A DNA stretch of 37,363 bases, from positions 1 through 37,363 of the forward strand of contig JAGOLA010000005.1 of NCBI GenBank assembly GCA_017994375.1, given 5' to 3'. Each line of letters begins with the position of its first letter. Positions within the stretch are counted from its first letter, which is position 1. The translations under genes and the position numbers were made by a program. Of this stretch, positions 24,369 through 32,798 are shown one piece after another. A model generated the notes under the pieces. It had not been told where the DNA came from and made no database searches. It worked only from the letters and a program-made list of their open reading frames with translations. Source of the DNA: Candidatus Omnitrophota bacterium (GTDB lineage Bacteria > Omnitrophota > Gorgyraeia > Duberdicusellales > 4484-171).

Positions 24369-25580
24369 ATGCAAATTAAGTTTCCTTCTTCCTTTCTTTG
24401 GGGGGCAGCTTTATCCAGTTATCAATGTGAAGGAGACAATGAAAATTCTGACTGGTGGGATTGGGAAAGAAAAAGAGGGATAGAAAGATCGGGTTTAGCT
24501 TGCAATCATTATAATTTATTTAAAGAGGATTTTAAATTAGCTCGCACTTTAAACCTTAACTCGTTAAGGTTGTCAATAGAATGGGCCAGAGTTTGTCCGC
24601 AACCGGATACTTTCTCTCAAGAAGAATTAGAACATTACCGTTTAGTAATAGAAGATCTGATCAAGCAAAGATTAAGGCCTTTAGTTACTCTACATCATTT
24701 TACTAATCCTATCTGGTTTTCTCAAAAACAAGGCTGGCTCGCCGCCCGTAATGTCGATCATTTCCTTTTTTACCTTAAAAAAATAGCTGAGACTTTTAAG
24801 GATAAAGTAGATTTATGGCTAATCTTTAATGAGCCGTTAGTATATATTTATAATAGCTTTATCCGCGGAATTTGGCCTCCCGGTGAAAAGTCCTTAAGAT
24901 TAGCTAAGAAAGCTTTAAATAATATCATAACTGCTTATCTTATCGGCTATCAGGAAATAAAGAAATTGAACCAAAAATATTTTTTAAGTTCCCAAGTCTC
25001 TTTCGCTAAACATATCAGGGTTTTTTCAGGATGCCGAGATTTTATTTTTTTTCTAAATTCACTAAGTGCTTTTTACCGCAGTAAGCAATTTAATTTTTGG
25101 CTTATCGATAAGCTTTGTAATAAACGCAGTTTGGATTTTATTGCCGTAAATTATTACTGTAAAGAATATGTTCAATTTAGAGGTTTTTTGGGTCGAGAAT
25201 GCCCAGATATCGGGCATAAAGAGATAAAAAATACCTTAGGCTGGGATATTTATCCCCAAGGGCTATATAAAATTCTTTTAAGTTTAAAAAGATTTAAACT
25301 ACCCATAATAGTTGCCGAAAACGGTACTTCCGAAATAAAAGATAGCCTCTATGAAAGTTACCTGATACAACACTTAAAGAGTTTAGCTAAAGCTTACTTA
25401 TGTAAGGTAGATATCCAGGGGTATTTCTGGTGGTCGCTGTTGGATAACTTTGAGTGGGATAAGGGATTTAAACATCGTTTTGGTTTAGCTGAAGTCGATT
25501 TTAATACTCAAAACAGAAAGATTAGGCCATTTGCCGCAGTTTATGCTAGAATATGCCGGGACAATGTTATTGAAATTTAA
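24369..25580 (+). CDS. GH1 family beta-glycosidase
   Basis: Retaining beta-glucosidase/galactosidase-type enzyme with a TIM barrel. The 403 residues have the N-terminal FPSSFLWGAALSSYQCEG, the acid/base Glu155 in FNEP, the nucleophile Glu317 in AENG, and the substrate-site WWSLLDNFEW near the end. It is about 40-60 residues shorter than usual GH1 enzymes, with loops in the middle missing. No signal peptide, so the substrate is intracellular. There is no Shine-Dalgarno site before the ATG; a TATTAT 6 bp upstream may make the mRNA leaderless. Exact sugar specificity is not predictable. Confidence 0.9.
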   Translation: MQIKFPSSFLWGAALSSYQCEGDNENSDWWDWERKRGIERSGLACNHYNLFKEDFKLARTLNLNSLRLSIEWARVCPQPDTFSQEELEHYRLVIEDLIKQRLRPLVTLHHFTNPIWFSQKQGWLAARNVDHFLFYLKKIAETFKDKVDLWLIFNEPLVYIYNSFIRGIWPPGEKSLRLAKKALNNIITAYLIGYQEIKKLNQKYFLSSQVSFAKHIRVFSGCRDFIFFLNSLSAFYRSKQFNFWLIDKLCNKRSLDFIAVNYYCKEYVQFRGFLGRECPDIGHKEIKNTLGWDIYPQGLYKILLSLKRFKLPIIVAENGTSEIKDSLYESYLIQHLKSLAKAYLCKVDIQGYFWWSLLDNFEWDKGFKHRFGLAEVDFNTQNRKIRPFAAVYARICRDNVIEI

Positions 25581-25591
25581 ATTATTCTCTT

Positions 25592-27430
25592 ATGGAGTTT
25601 AAAGATTTAAAGTTTATCCTTGATAATATTACGCCATTTAATAAGTTAAGTAAAAATAATCTTAGAGATTTTATCGCTATCTCTAAGGTAAAAGAGTATA
25701 AAAACGATGAAATTATTTACCGCGAAGGTGGAGAACCAGACTGTTTTTACATTCTTCTTAAAGGAAGAATAGTAGTTTCAACCTATAAAGATCATAAGGA
25801 TTCCGATATCGATGTCCTTAAACGCGGCACCTGTTTTGGTATGATTTCTCTTTTCACCGACGAACCACATTCTGTTACCGCTAGATCCATAGAAACATCC
25901 TATGTTTTACAGGTAGAAAAAAGCGAATTTAAAAAGTTTTTAGAAAAGAACCCGCTTATCTCTTTAGATTTATCACGTATGCTTTCACAAAGAGTTAAAG
26001 CTAGGTCAAAACCAAAAACCATATTTCAGTCGAAGAAGATAGGAATTATCCGGGAAGCTTCTGTTGGTGAAAGCGATTATATTTCCGATTTAGCTAGAGA
26101 GTTAAAGAATCAAACTAAGAAAAAAGTTATTGCTTTACAAATTGCCTCTGACTCTAAAACTCATAAAAGCAAGATTCTCTTAACCAAAAACTTTCAGGAA
26201 GAGACAGCCGAGAGTTATATTGTAAAAGGAGACAGCGACACCATCTATATAACTATAGATAGCCGAGATAATTTCTTTGCTTTGCTTAATTTTATATCCG
26301 AAAGGTACCATTTTGTTATTTACGAAATACCGCATAGGTTTTTAGAGGAAAATTATTACGGGCTGGTAAATCCAGTTCAGCAGTTACATTTTCTTATTTA
26401 TTCTCAAGAAGAATCTTTAGCTTCCGAGGCTTTATATATCCAGAATTTAAAAATAAGAGCTTTATTGAGCCAGGAAAAAATTAAAATTATTTTGCTGGAG
26501 CCAAAACAAAAAGAGGATTTAACCTTTGAAAGAAAACAAGAGTTGCTGGGCCACCCTATTTATGCCACTTTGCCTTTTCATAATAGTAGTGATTATAAAG
26601 GGGCTTTACGCCGGATATCCCGAGAAATAGGCGAAGTAGTATTAGGGGTAGCTTTAGGTAGTGGTGCTGCTTACGGTTTCTCTCATATCGGAGTTTTAAA
26701 GATTTTGGAACAAGAAAAGGTCACTATCGATATTATCAGCGGCTCAAGCATGGGGGCGGTAGTAGCAGCATTTTGGGCTGCTGGTTTCTCTTTCAGCGAT
26801 ACCGAACGCTTCTGTGCCGAAATCGGCAAAAAAATCGGTTCTTTTTCCATTATGGGGTTGAGTTTTCCTTTTCGGGGAATAATGAAAGCCGGACGCTTAG
26901 AGAGTATCTTTAAAAGCATTTTTAAGAGTCTAACTTTTTACGACTTAAAACACACTCTTAAAGTAGTCTCTTTTGATTTTGCTAAAAGAAGCACCGTAAT
27001 ATTATCCGAAGGCTTCATCTATAAAGCCTTAGCAGCTAGTTGTGCCTTCCCGGGTATTTTTGAGCCCATTAAATTTAGAAAAGATATTCTTTTAGACGGA
27101 GGAGTCCTAAACCCTTTACCTACAGAAATATTGGTAGGCTTTAACGCTAATAAGATAATAGCTTCTAATATAACTCTCTCTAAAGAACAGGCTTATAAAG
27201 AGTATCGGAGGCGTAACCAGTTGGGTATACTGGATTTTATTTTTGGCAGTATCGAAACTATGCAGCAAAAATTTATCGAACCAGCTTTAAAAATGGCTGA
27301 TGTAATTGTACATCCTAACCTAGAAGGTTTAGGCTGGACAGAGTTTAACCGGATAACAGAGTTTATCAAAAGAGGCGAAAAAGCGACTTTAGAAAAGATA
27401 GAAGAGATCAAGGAATTAATAAATGCTTAA
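25592..27430 (+). CDS. Cyclic-nucleotide-binding, patatin-like phospholipase (NTE-type)
   Basis: Three-part protein of 612 residues. Residues about 10-130 are a cNMP-binding domain (EIIYREGGEPDCFYILLKGR, GTCFGMISLFTDEPHSVTARS). Residues about 147-345 look like a ParA/MinD-type Rossmann fold: KIGIIREASVGESDYISDLA where a P-loop would be, FVIYEIPHRF, then LLGHPIYATLPF; the Lys-Thr of a working P-loop is not present. Residues 350-540 are the patatin lipase: GSGAAYGFSHIGVL oxyanion region, GSSMG with nucleophile Ser386, and DGG with Asp502. It would hydrolyse acyl chains of phospholipids in response to a nucleotide signal. It starts 11 bp after the GH1 stop. Confidence 0.87.
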   Translation: MEFKDLKFILDNITPFNKLSKNNLRDFIAISKVKEYKNDEIIYREGGEPDCFYILLKGRIVVSTYKDHKDSDIDVLKRGTCFGMISLFTDEPHSVTARSIETSYVLQVEKSEFKKFLEKNPLISLDLSRMLSQRVKARSKPKTIFQSKKIGIIREASVGESDYISDLARELKNQTKKKVIALQIASDSKTHKSKILLTKNFQEETAESYIVKGDSDTIYITIDSRDNFFALLNFISERYHFVIYEIPHRFLEENYYGLVNPVQQLHFLIYSQEESLASEALYIQNLKIRALLSQEKIKIILLEPKQKEDLTFERKQELLGHPIYATLPFHNSSDYKGALRRISREIGEVVLGVALGSGAAYGFSHIGVLKILEQEKVTIDIISGSSMGAVVAAFWAAGFSFSDTERFCAEIGKKIGSFSIMGLSFPFRGIMKAGRLESIFKSIFKSLTFYDLKHTLKVVSFDFAKRSTVILSEGFIYKALAASCAFPGIFEPIKFRKDILLDGGVLNPLPTEILVGFNANKIIASNITLSKEQAYKEYRRRNQLGILDFIFGSIETMQQKFIEPALKMADVIVHPNLEGLGWTEFNRITEFIKRGEKATLEKIEEIKELINA

Positions 27431-27452
27431 ATATAAGTAGGGTGCAAAAACT

Positions 27453-28163
27453 ATGAATATTACAAAAGTTATCTTTTTCTTTTTGATTTCATTAGGAATT
27501 ATGAGTTTTTCTTTAGCTCAAGATATGGATACTCGCCTCCAAAAAAATAAAAAGTTTCTTTATAAAGTCTCTTTTAACGGTATACCTTCGGGCTATATAG
27601 AGTGGGAATATTTAGGCAAGGAAGTAATTTTAGATAATAAAGAAGCTTACGTTTTACAGGTTAGTTCTGATACCAAAATACTTAAACTGCTGAATTTAGC
27701 TAGCAAAGAACAAGTTTTTTTAGATAGTCAAACGCATCTTCCTCTTTGGGTTAAGAGAGATATTGTTTTTTTTGGGAAAAAAGAATTAATTGAAGAAATT
27801 TATAATCAAACCAAAGGCTACGTTACCATAAAAAAAAGTAATTCTAAAACCGAAGAAGATATTTTATATCAAAAAAAACCTATACATAATATTTTAGAGC
27901 TTCTTTATTTTTTTCCGCTGGGGGTAGAATTAAAAAGTAACAAATGGATGTCTTTTAACCTTCCTAACCAGAAGGTACAGATAAAATTGATAGGAGAAAG
28001 AAAAGTAGTTTCGGGAGAAAATACTTTAAGCGCCTATTTTCTTATTGGCAGAGGAGCTAAACGGTTCAGTTTGTGGTTAGATAAGGATAACAGGTTGCCT
28101 CTGCGAATGGAAATTATTTTACCGGTAGGAAAAGTTATTATTTTACGGACCGAAAATAATTAG
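27453..28163 (+). CDS. DUF3108 domain protein, exported
   Basis: Protein of 236 residues with a signal peptide (about 1-22, ending SLAQ before Asp), so periplasmic. The mature part has the DUF3108 pattern: FLYKVSFNGIPSGYIEWEY near the start, HNILELLYFFPLG in the middle, and FSLWLDKDNRLPLRMEI at the end. It is related in layout to the membrane-tethered DUF3108 protein at 5042-5809. It lies 22 bp after the patatin gene and 7 bp before lpxA, which suggests an envelope-lipid role, but the function of the domain is unknown. Confidence 0.72.
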   Translation: MNITKVIFFFLISLGIMSFSLAQDMDTRLQKNKKFLYKVSFNGIPSGYIEWEYLGKEVILDNKEAYVLQVSSDTKILKLLNLASKEQVFLDSQTHLPLWVKRDIVFFGKKELIEEIYNQTKGYVTIKKSNSKTEEDILYQKKPIHNILELLYFFPLGVELKSNKWMSFNLPNQKVQIKLIGERKVVSGENTLSAYFLIGRGAKRFSLWLDKDNRLPLRMEIILPVGKVIILRTENN

Positions 28164-28170
28164 TTTTAAA

Positions 28171-29013
28171 ATGATACACTCGACGGCAATTGTTGATAAA
28201 GATGTTATTCTCGGAGAAAATACCGAAATCGGACCTTATAGTGTAGTAGAGCCGGGCGTCCAATTAGGAAGAGCAGTTAGAATTGGGCCTTACGTACATT
28301 TAAAAGGCAATACTTATATAGGCGATAATACCTTTATCGGCAGCGGTAGCGTTATCGGAGAAGCTCCACAGATATTAGGTAAAAAGGAATCTTTAGGCAA
28401 AGTTCATATCGGTAAAAATAACATTATTAGAGAATACGTCACTATTAATTCTTCTTCTTCTTTAGAAAAAGCTACCGTTATTGGTGATGATAATTATTTG
28501 ATGGCTTTTTCACACTTAGCTCATGATTGTAAATTAGCTAACAGTATTGTAATTTGCAATGGTTCTTTGATTGCCGGCCATGTAGAAATTCACGATAAGG
28601 CTTTTGTCTCCGGTAGCGTAGTAGTCCATCAATTTGTAAGAATCGGCAGGTTAGCAATGGTCGGCGGTCTTTCGCGGGTGAATCAGGATATTCCTCCGTT
28701 TATGATGGTAGTAGGAGATTCCCGAGTATGGGGAATAAACGCCGTGGGTATAAAACGGGCCGGTTTTAAACAATCAGAATTAGCTATTATAAAAGATTCT
28801 TATAACTACTTATACCGCAAGAAACTACCGCTTAAAAATGCTTTAGCTAAGATAAGGGAAATCAAATCGCCGTTCAGCGAAGAGATAGCACTTTTTATTC
28901 TTTCTTCTCAAAGAGGCATCTGCGGCCCTAAAAAAAGTACTCTTTGGGAGAAGTTATTTTTAGACTACCCTTATTTCTTAAGGACGAGAATACCCTTTCC
29001 TTATAAATATTAA
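28171..29013 (+). CDS. lpxA: Acyl-ACP--UDP-N-acetylglucosamine O-acyltransferase
   Basis: First enzyme of lipid A synthesis, transferring a 3-hydroxyacyl chain from ACP to UDP-GlcNAc. The 280 residues start with IHSTAIVDKDVILGENTEIGPYSVVEPGV, followed by left-handed beta-helix hexapeptide repeats to about residue 190, the catalytic His118 in FSHLAHDC, then the helical C-terminal region (VGIKRAGFKQSELAIIKDSYNYLYR). Slightly longer than E. coli LpxA (262). It shows that the organism makes a lipid A-type outer membrane. No other lpx gene is nearby. Its last 4 bp overlap the 3' end of trmI on the other strand. Confidence 0.94.
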   Translation: MIHSTAIVDKDVILGENTEIGPYSVVEPGVQLGRAVRIGPYVHLKGNTYIGDNTFIGSGSVIGEAPQILGKKESLGKVHIGKNNIIREYVTINSSSSLEKATVIGDDNYLMAFSHLAHDCKLANSIVICNGSLIAGHVEIHDKAFVSGSVVVHQFVRIGRLAMVGGLSRVNQDIPPFMMVVGDSRVWGINAVGIKRAGFKQSELAIIKDSYNYLYRKKLPLKNALAKIREIKSPFSEEIALFILSSQRGICGPKKSTLWEKLFLDYPYFLRTRIPFPYKY

Positions 29014-30036: not shown

Positions 30037-31230
30037 ATGAAGTATGTAATGATCGTTCCCGATGGAGCTAGTGACTATCCTATCGATATTCTGGAAGGGA
30101 AAACGCCTTTTGAAGTCGCCGAAACTCCTTTTATGGATTCTTTAGCTAAAAAAGGTTCATTAGGGCGCATCAAAACAGTACCGCGAGGTTTTACTCCTTC
30201 TAGTGATGTGGCTAATCTAGCTTTATTAGGCTATGATCCTAGCCTTTATTATACCGGTAGAGGCCCTTTGGAAGCAGCCAATTTAGGAGTCGACTTAGAT
30301 AAGGAAGATTTGGCTTTTCGTTGTAACCTTATTACCGAATCCGAAGGTAAACTCTTTGACTATAGCGCTGGCCATATAACCGATAAAGAAGCAAAAGTTA
30401 TTATGAAAGATATCAATGATGAACTGGGGAAAGATAATATCCAATTTTATTTCGGAACCAGTTATCGCAATATAATGGTTATTAAAGAAGGATGTAAATT
30501 AGGTTTAGAAAAACTAAAATATTTTGCTCCCCACGATATTATGGGGCAGGAGATTTCGCGATATTTACCGCACGGCAAAAATAGCCAGATTATAATTGAC
30601 CTTATGAACCGCTCTAAAGAGATTTTGTCTAAACACGAAATAAATAAAGTTAGGATAGATTTAGGCGAAAGCCCGGCCAATATGATTTGGCTTTGGGGTT
30701 GCGGTCCTAAACCGTCTTTACCGAATTTTAAAGAACAATTCGGCCTTAGCGGAGCAGTTATCTCTGCTGTAGATCTTATAAAGGGAATTGGTAGAATAAT
30801 CGGTTTGGAAGTTATAAAAGTACCGGGCGCTAACGGCTACTACGATACCAATTATAAGGGGAAGGCAGAAAAAGCTCTGGAAGCTTTAGACCATTGCGAT
30901 TTTGTATTTATCCATATTGAAGCTACCGACGAAGCCGGTCATAATCAGGATTTACGCATGAAGATAACTTGTATCGAAAGAATAGATAAGATGGTGGTAG
31001 GCACTATTGTTAATAAGTTAAAAGATAAAGATTTTAGAATTTTAATCACCCCCGATCATCCTACTCCGGTTTCTAAAAGGACCCACACTGACGAACCCGT
31101 CCCTTTTTTAATTGCTGGTTCCGGAATAGCGAGCGGCGGTTTTTCTTCCTATTCGGAAACTGAAGCCCAAAATAGCTCCCTTTATTTTAATAAAGGCATC
31201 GATTTATTAAATTATTTTTTTCATAAATGA
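30037..31230 (+). CDS. Archaeal-type cofactor-independent PGM family protein; possible homoserine kinase
   Basis: Alkaline-phosphatase-superfamily metalloenzyme of 397 residues. It has the ApgM layout: MIVPDGASDYPI metal site, FTPSSDVANLALLGYDP nucleophile Ser loop (near 54-60), YTGRGPLEAANLGV, KVPGANGYYDTNYKGKA, FIHIEATDEAGHNQD and ITPDHPTPVS metal ligands. The family interconverts 2- and 3-phosphoglycerate, but one subfamily of the same length is proposed to be an alternative homoserine kinase and tends to sit near lysC. Here lysC lies two genes downstream, so both readings are open. The start follows GGGTGAG. Its stop overlaps cstA by 4 bp. Confidence 0.85.
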   Translation: MKYVMIVPDGASDYPIDILEGKTPFEVAETPFMDSLAKKGSLGRIKTVPRGFTPSSDVANLALLGYDPSLYYTGRGPLEAANLGVDLDKEDLAFRCNLITESEGKLFDYSAGHITDKEAKVIMKDINDELGKDNIQFYFGTSYRNIMVIKEGCKLGLEKLKYFAPHDIMGQEISRYLPHGKNSQIIIDLMNRSKEILSKHEINKVRIDLGESPANMIWLWGCGPKPSLPNFKEQFGLSGAVISAVDLIKGIGRIIGLEVIKVPGANGYYDTNYKGKAEKALEALDHCDFVFIHIEATDEAGHNQDLRMKITCIERIDKMVVGTIVNKLKDKDFRILITPDHPTPVSKRTHTDEPVPFLIAGSGIASGGFSSYSETEAQNSSLYFNKGIDLLNYFFHK

Positions 31231-32798
31231 GCATATTAATTTTTCTTCTCGCTATCGGTTTGCTTATCTTAGGCTATATTTTTTATGGCAATTACATCGT
31301 TTCTATATTTGGCATAGATAAAAATAAAATAACACCTGCTTTAGCTAAAGAAGACGGTGTGGATTATGTTCCGGCTAAGAATTGGCTGGTTATTTTCGGG
31401 CATCATTTTGCTTCTATAGCCGGCGCTGGCCCGATAATCGGCCCGATTTTAGCTTATATTTATTGGGGTTGGCTCGGAGCTATGGTTTGGATAATTTTAG
31501 GAACTATTTTTATGGGGGCAGTCCATGATTTTTCTTCGCTTTTTATATCTTTAAGGGAAGAAGGCTTTAGCATTGGTCAAATTGCCCAAAAATACGTATC
31601 TAAGAGAGCCGGCACATTTCTTTTAATTTTTTTGTGGTTTGCTTTAATAATAGTTATTGCTATTTTTGCCGCTATTTGCGCCAAAAGTTTCATCGATCAA
31701 CCGGCAGTAGTAGTTTCTTCTTTAGGGTTAATACCAGTAGCTATAGTGGTAGGATTTTTGATTTACCGTTTAAGAGTCAATCTTGTTTTATCTACCTTGT
31801 TGGGAATTGCTGGCTTAGGTTTTTTATTAATTTTAGGCCAAGTTAAGCCTTTGGTATTAAACATCGAAAACCCTTATTTTTTATGGGTGCTAATTCTTTT
31901 AGTTTATGCTTTCTTGGCCTCGATAATTCCGGTAAATATTCTTTTACAGCCCCGTGATTATCTATCTAGTTTTTTACTTTTCTTCGGTATAACGGTTGCT
32001 TTTATCGGCTTATTATCTAAGTCGTACTCTATAAGCGGAGCAAAACTAATACAATTTCAATCCGAAGCCGGCTATATCTTTCCGATGATGTTTATAACTA
32101 TTGCTTGCGGAGCTATTTCCGGTTTTCATTCTTTAGTTGCCAGCGGAACTACCTCTAAACAGATTGCTAGTGAGGGTGATGCTAAAAAAATAGGTTATGG
32201 CGCCATGGTTTTAGAAGGAGTTTTAGCTTTATTAGTTTTATTTGCGGTAGCTTTTGGTTTAAAAGATATACCCCAAGGAATAAGCGAACCGGCAGAAATC
32301 TTTTCTTTGGGCTTTGCCAAGATAGTATATTTCTTGGGAGATTATGCTAAATATTTGGCTTTAGTAATACTTAATGCTTTTATTCTTACTACTTTGGATA
32401 CCGCTACTAGAATAGCCCGTTTTATAACACAAGAGCTGTTTAACATTAATAATAAATGGTTAGCCACCGCCTTAGTTGTTCTTTCCGCAGGTTATTTAGC
32501 GCTGATGGATAAATGGAAACTTCTTTGGCCGATATTCGGTGCTTCTAATCAATTGGTAGCCGGATTGGCTTTGATAGTAGCCAGCGGTTGGCTATTTTGT
32601 AAGAAAAAAAAGTATTATGTAACCTTCATTCCCGCTATTATAATGATTGTAATTACGATTTTAGCTTTAGCTTTACAAGTAAAAGGATTTTTAGCCGATA
32701 AAAATTATCTTTTGTCTTTGATAGGGTTTATTTTAATAAGTTTTGGTATTTTAGGTATTTTTGAATTTAGGAAGATGATAAAATGCAGAATAAGCTAA
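31227..32798 (+). CDS. cstA: CstA-family carbon starvation/pyruvate transporter
   Basis: Integral membrane carrier of 523 residues, about 13-15 helices, from the CstA/BtsT family, whose characterised members import pyruvate or peptides. Family features: FGHHFASIAGAGPIIGPILA near the start, WIILGTIFMGAVHDFSSLFISLREEG, FHSLVASGTTSKQIASEGDAK, and NAFILTTLDTATRIARFITQELF. It is shorter than E. coli CstA (701) and lacks the long C-terminal extension, as in many anaerobe homologues. It is joined to the upstream gene by ATGA and overlaps lysC by 16 bp, linking carbon uptake to amino-acid synthesis. Confidence 0.88.
   Translation: MSILIFLLAIGLLILGYIFYGNYIVSIFGIDKNKITPALAKEDGVDYVPAKNWLVIFGHHFASIAGAGPIIGPILAYIYWGWLGAMVWIILGTIFMGAVHDFSSLFISLREEGFSIGQIAQKYVSKRAGTFLLIFLWFALIIVIAIFAAICAKSFIDQPAVVVSSLGLIPVAIVVGFLIYRLRVNLVLSTLLGIAGLGFLLILGQVKPLVLNIENPYFLWVLILLVYAFLASIIPVNILLQPRDYLSSFLLFFGITVAFIGLLSKSYSISGAKLIQFQSEAGYIFPMMFITIACGAISGFHSLVASGTTSKQIASEGDAKKIGYGAMVLEGVLALLVLFAVAFGLKDIPQGISEPAEIFSLGFAKIVYFLGDYAKYLALVILNAFILTTLDTATRIARFITQELFNINNKWLATALVVLSAGYLALMDKWKLLWPIFGASNQLVAGLALIVASGWLFCKKKKYYVTFIPAIIMIVITILALALQVKGFLADKNYLLSLIGFILISFGILGIFEFRKMIKCRIS

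Follow-up and report, generated by a model that had tools for sequence, protein, structure and literature searches.

A patatin lipase of Omnitrophota with a cyclic-nucleotide-binding fold and a MinD/ParA-type middle domain whose P-loop is intact in some relatives and broken in others

The window analysed here is a stretch of 37,363 nucleotides from a Candidatus Omnitrophota bacterium (assembly GCA_017994375.1, contig JAGOLA010000005.1). Its plus strand holds an open frame of 612 amino acids, uninterrupted by a stop in the ORF reading, whose product comprises a CRP/cNMP-fold domain, a middle domain (about residues 140-350) and a patatin lipase domain, in this order (Table 1). This arrangement had been proposed in an earlier note made from the sequence alone, and both Pfam and structure prediction agreed with it. 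A Pfam scan of the 612-residue protein matched no domain between cNMP_binding and Patatin. The full-length AlphaFold2 model, built with 26 input sequences, reached a pLDDT of 82.9 and a pTM of 0.71. The genome carrying the contig (1.43 Mb in 136 contigs, 89% complete) gave a single match to the lipase protein, which was of full length.

Table 1. Features of the lipase gene and its neighbours; positions are those of the window
Feature	Position	Strand	Basis
GH1-family glycosidase gene, 12 bases upstream of the lipase	24369..25580	+	PF00232, 7.4e-71
ORF, 612 aa: CRP/cNMP-fold domain, MinD/ParA-fold domain with broken P-loop, patatin lipase	25592..27430	+	ORF, Pfam, model
CRP/cNMP-fold domain, residues 34-120	25691..25951	+	PF00027 (cNMP_binding), 1.3e-20
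His93, where canonical cNMP domains have the phosphate-binding Arg	25868..25870	+	alignments
Middle domain, residues 140-352, MinD/ParA fold	26009..26647	+	model, fold matches, sequence profile
P-loop remnant, residues 154-161, Arg154/Glu160 for Gly/Lys	26051..26074	+	alignments, codons
Walker B-like strand, residues 241-247 (FVIYEIP), acid Glu245	26312..26332	+	alignment; model strand 241-245
Patatin lipase domain, residues 354-514	26651..27133	+	PF01734, 2e-29
Ser386, nucleophile position (GSSMG)	26747..26749	+	Ser in 106 of 106 rows
Asp502, dyad position (DGG)	27095..27097	+	Asp in 105 of 106 rows, the remaining row being cut by a contig end
DUF3108-like gene, 22 bases downstream of the lipase	27453..28163	+	DUF3108, 2.4e-4, below the curated cut-off
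lpxA, lipid A biosynthesis acyltransferase	28171..29013	+	NF003657, 5.3e-86, over the cut-off

The genes for the glycosidase, the lipase and the DUF3108-like protein lie tightly together (24369-28163) as a block that is kept in much of the window's clade. Of the 24 named loci with upstream sequence, 22 had a GH1 homologue ahead of the lipase, and a DUF3108-like homologue lay downstream in 15 of all 25 named loci, with two of the other ten almost devoid of downstream sequence. In 20 more distant loci we found a GH1 homologue only twice and a DUF3108 homologue in none; the block is thus characteristic of that part of the phylum to which the window belongs. One block of this composition would suit glycolipid turnover, and a joint role of the three genes in such a process is possible, but with GH1 in only 2 of the 20 distant loci the idea would be valid at most for the window's clade. 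The DUF3108 match exceeded the cut-off in two of the four orthologues scanned, and the product of the window's DUF3108-like gene has a hydrophobic N-terminus resembling a signal sequence. The earlier note had placed the lipase next to lpxA: lpxA does follow close downstream, but the DUF3108-like frame lies between the two. Further along, the window encodes a CstA-like carbon starvation transporter (31227-32798, 523 amino acids), for which roughly the first 350 positions of the Pfam model match best.

An alignment scan of genome records returned 25 loci, 23 of them from Omnitrophota/Omnitrophica, one from Candidatus Susulua and one filed as 'bacterium'. At E up to 1e-20, 49 of 58 relatives had a match to the protein, and at E up to 1e-10 so did 268 of 285 phylum genomes, many of these matches being to the lipase domain alone; rows in which we read all three domains in full layout belong to at least 29 family codes. 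Scans with the single protein confirmed none of 78 genome-contig stretches, and the viral-contig scan confirmed none of 103. In the plasmid collection, a single record reached a query coverage of at least 80%; it came from Methylobacterium bullatum, at 22% identity. A control search for patatin, which does not reveal domain layout, gave matches in 9 of 14 named genomes. Among the titles and abstract beginnings of open-licence PMC papers, we found none describing a protein that joins patatin and cyclic-nucleotide domains with a P-loop, MinD or Rossmann domain.

For residue-level comparison we used 106 aligned Omnitrophota rows, namely the best-scoring and longest matches together with 60 stretches picked from the phylum search; as shorter and weaker matches were excluded, the set does not sample the family at random. 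After two rows that duplicated others exactly and one truncated by a contig end (L027) had been dropped, 103 distinct homologues remained. The lipase domain of the window protein has all the patatin hallmarks, that is, the oxyanion-hole glycines (GSGAAYG), the GSSMG serine and the DGG aspartate, and the best match of the whole model was the patatin lipase PlpD (5fya, 1.4e-18).

We then modelled the middle domain (residues 140-352) alone with AlphaFold2, which gave a pLDDT of 87.3 and a pTM of 0.85. The top Foldseek match was 3ea0, a ParA family ATPase (1.2e-8), followed by nitrogenase Fe protein, FlhG and MinD. VIA-align likewise placed 3ea0 first (Z 18.5, rmsd 2.8 over 197 residues), with MinD 4v03 at Z 17.4 and other MinD chains near 16-17. 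Sequence led to the same family: a profile of 28 members found 3ea0 at 6.4e-8 and MinD chains at about 2e-4 to 3e-4. The P-loop motif is not the source of the 3ea0 profile match, because that match begins behind the P-loop. Taken singly, 9 of the 28 members matched AAA_31 and 9 matched CbiA, the ParA/MinD models of Pfam, while the window protein matched neither. AAA_31 was also matched by all of ten chosen distant members (E up to 0.1), six of them over the Pfam cut-off. The ParA/MinD strand order that the earlier note had read in the middle third is therefore borne out by fold prediction, fold search and sequence profile. On the strength of model and profile, we consider the fold assignment right and descent of the domain from a MinD/ParA ATPase probable. 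It is the least conserved part of the protein (mean top-residue share 0.42, versus 0.56 and 0.60 in the other two domains), which would also fit a mere spacer.

In the window protein the P-loop of this domain is broken. The loop reads R154-E-A-S-V-G159-E160-S161, so that, aligned with its relatives, Arg154 (CGG) replaces the first glycine of GxxxxGK[ST] and Glu160 (GAA) replaces the lysine; Gly159-Glu160-Ser161 thus stands where MinD/ParA ATPases have an intact GK[ST]. The same alignment confirms the earlier observation of ASVGESDY (residues 156-163) at the P-loop position without the Lys-Thr pair, and the suspicion that such a loop no longer works was sound, as Arg154 and Glu160 rule out a canonical P-loop function in this protein. 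MinD and ParA also carry a signature lysine five residues ahead of the P-loop lysine; the corresponding residue here is Glu155.

Across the family the picture is different. Among the 106 rows, 58 have GK[ST], nine GR[ST], three K[ST] without the glycine and 36 none of these. Scoring only GK[ST] as intact, and hence both the nine GR[ST] and the three glycine-less rows as not intact, we counted an intact P-loop in 56 of the 103 distinct homologues. The four rows nearest to the window by tree path (L002, L004, L003 and L005) are all among them. The domain had been called degenerate, and this holds for the P-loop of the window protein; degeneracy throughout the domain family is rejected by these counts. 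Relatives with an intact P-loop, which the earlier note had named as evidence against its own reading, do exist, and they count against domain-wide degeneracy, not against the fold.

To place these states on a phylogeny, we used a tree of the quick type, calculated from the N-terminal and lipase columns with the middle domain left out and rooted with an outgroup (L129) on a very long branch. By parsimony, the P-loop state changed at least ten times, and well-supported branches make five of these changes unavoidable. Its distribution over the tree is strongly clustered (none of 500 shuffles gave as few as ten changes), so that the changes represent events in a few clades. Parsimony changes have no direction and leave gain and loss inseparable; since the loop is broken in many different ways, we infer that they were losses. 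Judged from sequence, loss of the P-loop thus appears to be lineage-specific, and in our reading the domain was once an ATPase, whose site has decayed in the window's lineage and repeatedly in the family. One clade (L092, L095, L088 and L093) has a longer acidic stretch (for example GDALTKDDTALY) in place of the P-loop and His or Pro in place of the Walker B acid, which would represent a different, separate route of ATP-site loss. Two further rows, L064 and L079, have one in-frame stop each inside the search match (TAA in G294 and TAG in G250, respectively); as their reading frames run for 668 and 702 amino acids, the stop is likely to fall close to where the match ends.

Other positions were compared between rows with and without the loop. 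At the Walker B position, every one of the 56 intact rows has an acid (Asp or Glu), compared with 27 of the 47 others, as would be expected if the intact rows bind Mg-ATP; the association is not independent of ancestry, the sign test being non-significant with only five independent pairs on well-supported branches. The signature lysine occurs in just 3 of the 56 intact rows, so that the MinD mechanism may not apply even to intact members. The Ser386/Asp502 dyad is intact in rows with a P-loop as well as in rows without one, which suggests that the lipase enzyme outlives the ATP site.

Could the broken loop of the window protein be an artefact, or belong to a gene in decay? The source is a draft genome in 136 contigs, and single changes could turn lysine codons into GAA. 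However, two diagnostic positions (154 and 160) are altered, all 612 codons are open, the lipase residues are intact and independent P-loop losses occur in many other genomes. We therefore reject an assembly error and regard this explanation as highly improbable. A second alternative accepts the loss and supposes that the middle domain still binds something at this place, be it a nucleotide without the help of the lysine or another ligand, for instance a metal or iron-sulphur centre or the head group of a lipid. In its favour, Gly159, Ser161 and the acidic Glu245 are retained, as is a confidently modelled fold (pLDDT 87), but the first glycine and the lysine are both gone, with the charge reversed at the lysine position, and the rows that lack any loop count against a shared ligand at the P-loop place. 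Such residual binding is unlikely.

The third alternative concerns the signal. The N-terminal domain has the CRP β-barrel fold of canonical cNMP domains, and CRP and PKA regulatory chains match the full-length model. In CRP and PKA, an arginine of the pocket holds the cyclic phosphate and a glutamate holds the ribose. Both are absent from the window protein, whose pocket loop is FGMISLFTDEPHSVT: His93, which aligns with the arginine of cGMP-dependent protein kinase chains, takes the place of the former, and Met84 that of the FGE glutamate. Histidine stands at the arginine position in 106 of 106 rows, and the glutamate is kept in 20 rows and replaced in 86. A class III cyclase was present in 5 of the 34 genomes of the relatives set, and a search for this class found none in the window's own, 89%-complete genome. 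The earlier note had proposed that the middle domain relays a cyclic-nucleotide signal to the lipase. In favour of cAMP or cGMP binding one may cite the strong PF00027 match (1.3e-20), the cyclases of the five relatives and a layout like that of PNPLA7, in which, according to PMC5704489, cAMP analogues act via the third cNMP domain to send the protein to lipid droplets. The same paper reports that PNPLA7 activity did not change, and PMC9319352 likewise describes NTE activity in vitro as unaffected by cAMP. Together with the pocket residues and the cyclase search, this weakens the proposed relay, which we now regard as doubtful; canonical cAMP or cGMP sensing by the N-terminal domain is unlikely. 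Because an invariant histidine replaces the phosphate-binding arginine, the domain is probably not the usual cAMP/cGMP receptor and may instead bind another anion, ligand or protein. As a caution, a cNMP-fold domain is not always a cAMP receptor.

Our preferred reading, to which we assign a probability of about 0.5, is that of a sensor-switch-lipase protein whose switch was once a MinD/ParA ATPase and has become a pseudo-ATPase coupler in the window's lineage. The protein would be a cytosolic, NTE-like lipid hydrolase in which a switch connects a sensor with an effector. The middle domain of relatives whose loop is intact is most likely to bind ATP and to form a face-to-face dimer like that of MinD, and ATP binding and hydrolysis would set the assembly of the lipase and perhaps its contact with a membrane. 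In the window's lineage, with the ATP site lost, the domain most likely persists as a pseudo-ATPase, either a folded coupler or a constitutive dimer interface. The state of the sensor could be passed to the patatin domain via the conserved last helix (residues 333-347, with Arg341 and Arg344), and the Ser386/Asp502 dyad would then cleave an acyl lipid.

The layout as such is already known, since the window protein follows the order of the neuropathy target esterase (NTE) family, namely cNMP domain, linker and patatin. New are a readable and partly intact MinD/ParA module, the invariant sensor histidine and the gene block. In the excerpts of the literature that we consulted, the function of the NTE-type region between the cNMP-fold and lipase domains goes unexplained. 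One excerpt (PMC9319352) gives residues 727-1216 as the minimal active fragment of NTE, which is longer than the patatin domain and, we infer, spans the linker side.

Whether the middle domain is the same as the linker of NTE proteins, of which the Omnitrophota would have kept an older form, deserves separate consideration. Pfam describes its NTE_Ploop model (PF24179), sited between PF00027 and PF01734, as 'P-loop like', and both linkers thus sit between a cNMP and a patatin domain. PF24179 matches six of six alphaproteobacterial linkers (best 1e-30), and one alphaproteobacterial NTE-like protein covers 84% of the window protein in tblastn. Against identity, PF24179 recognised neither the window protein (E up to 10) nor any of ten distant Omnitrophota linkers (E up to 0.1), and in 38 Omnitrophota genomes it found no lipase locus, its two weak matches lying on contigs without the lipase. 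Profile-profile comparison (hhalign) of the Omnitrophota linkers with the six alphaproteobacterial ones was not significant, the two runs aligning differing stretches with probabilities of 0.8% and 0.6% (E 0.07 and 0.1). The alphaproteobacterial profile retrieved no ParA chain from PDB sequences; its best hit (E 0.2) was of another kind. We consider identity of the two linkers possible, at somewhat under even odds: a single module could have decayed to different degrees in the two groups, or two modules could have been recruited separately to one position. That the Omnitrophota proteins represent the ancestral NTE state, the NTE linker, which in animals, fungi and most bacteria can be read no further than 'P-loop like', having begun as a working MinD-type ATPase, is a tentative proposal to which we would give about one chance in three. 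If true, NTE would be an ATP-gated, dimerising lipase whose gate was repeatedly dismantled, and in the disease protein PNPLA6 the coupler would be a pseudo-MinD domain. A MinD/ParA domain that is intact in some members and broken in close relatives amounts to a natural experiment: their comparison could show whether ATP gates the lipase, what is left after loss of the ATP site, and whether this module also forms the linker of the eukaryotic proteins.

Among known systems, the NTE family (PNPLA6/PNPLA7, yeast Nte1 and bacterial NTE-like proteins) is thus alike in joining a cNMP fold, a linker of about 200 residues and a patatin domain. It differs in the linker, which in Omnitrophota is ParA/MinD-like, often has an intact P-loop and goes unmatched by the NTE_Ploop model, and in the cNMP pocket, where the Omnitrophota proteins have histidine for arginine whereas six of six alphaproteobacterial homologues, in an alignment read by eye, have the arginine. 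Bacterial patatin lipases of the PlpD and CapV/CapE types share the catalytic domain but have different accessory domains and a different trigger; CapE, by its entry titles, is a patatin lipase switched by a cyclic dinucleotide. The MinD/ParA ATPases (3ea0 of Chlorobium tepidum, MinD 4v02/4v03 and FlhG 4rz2) resemble the middle domain in fold across its whole length and in sequence profile. They are free proteins, whereas the Omnitrophota domain is fused between sensor and lipase, and they differ from it in the P-loop, which is broken in the window protein and in 46 other rows among the 103. TadZ and CpaE are atypical MinD/ParA proteins with altered P-loops, and 3fkq, which we take to be TadZ, matched the middle-domain model at a VIA-align Z of 15.5. 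They too retain the MinD/ParA fold despite a changed P-loop, but TadZ has a receiver-like domain and serves pilus assembly without a lipase.
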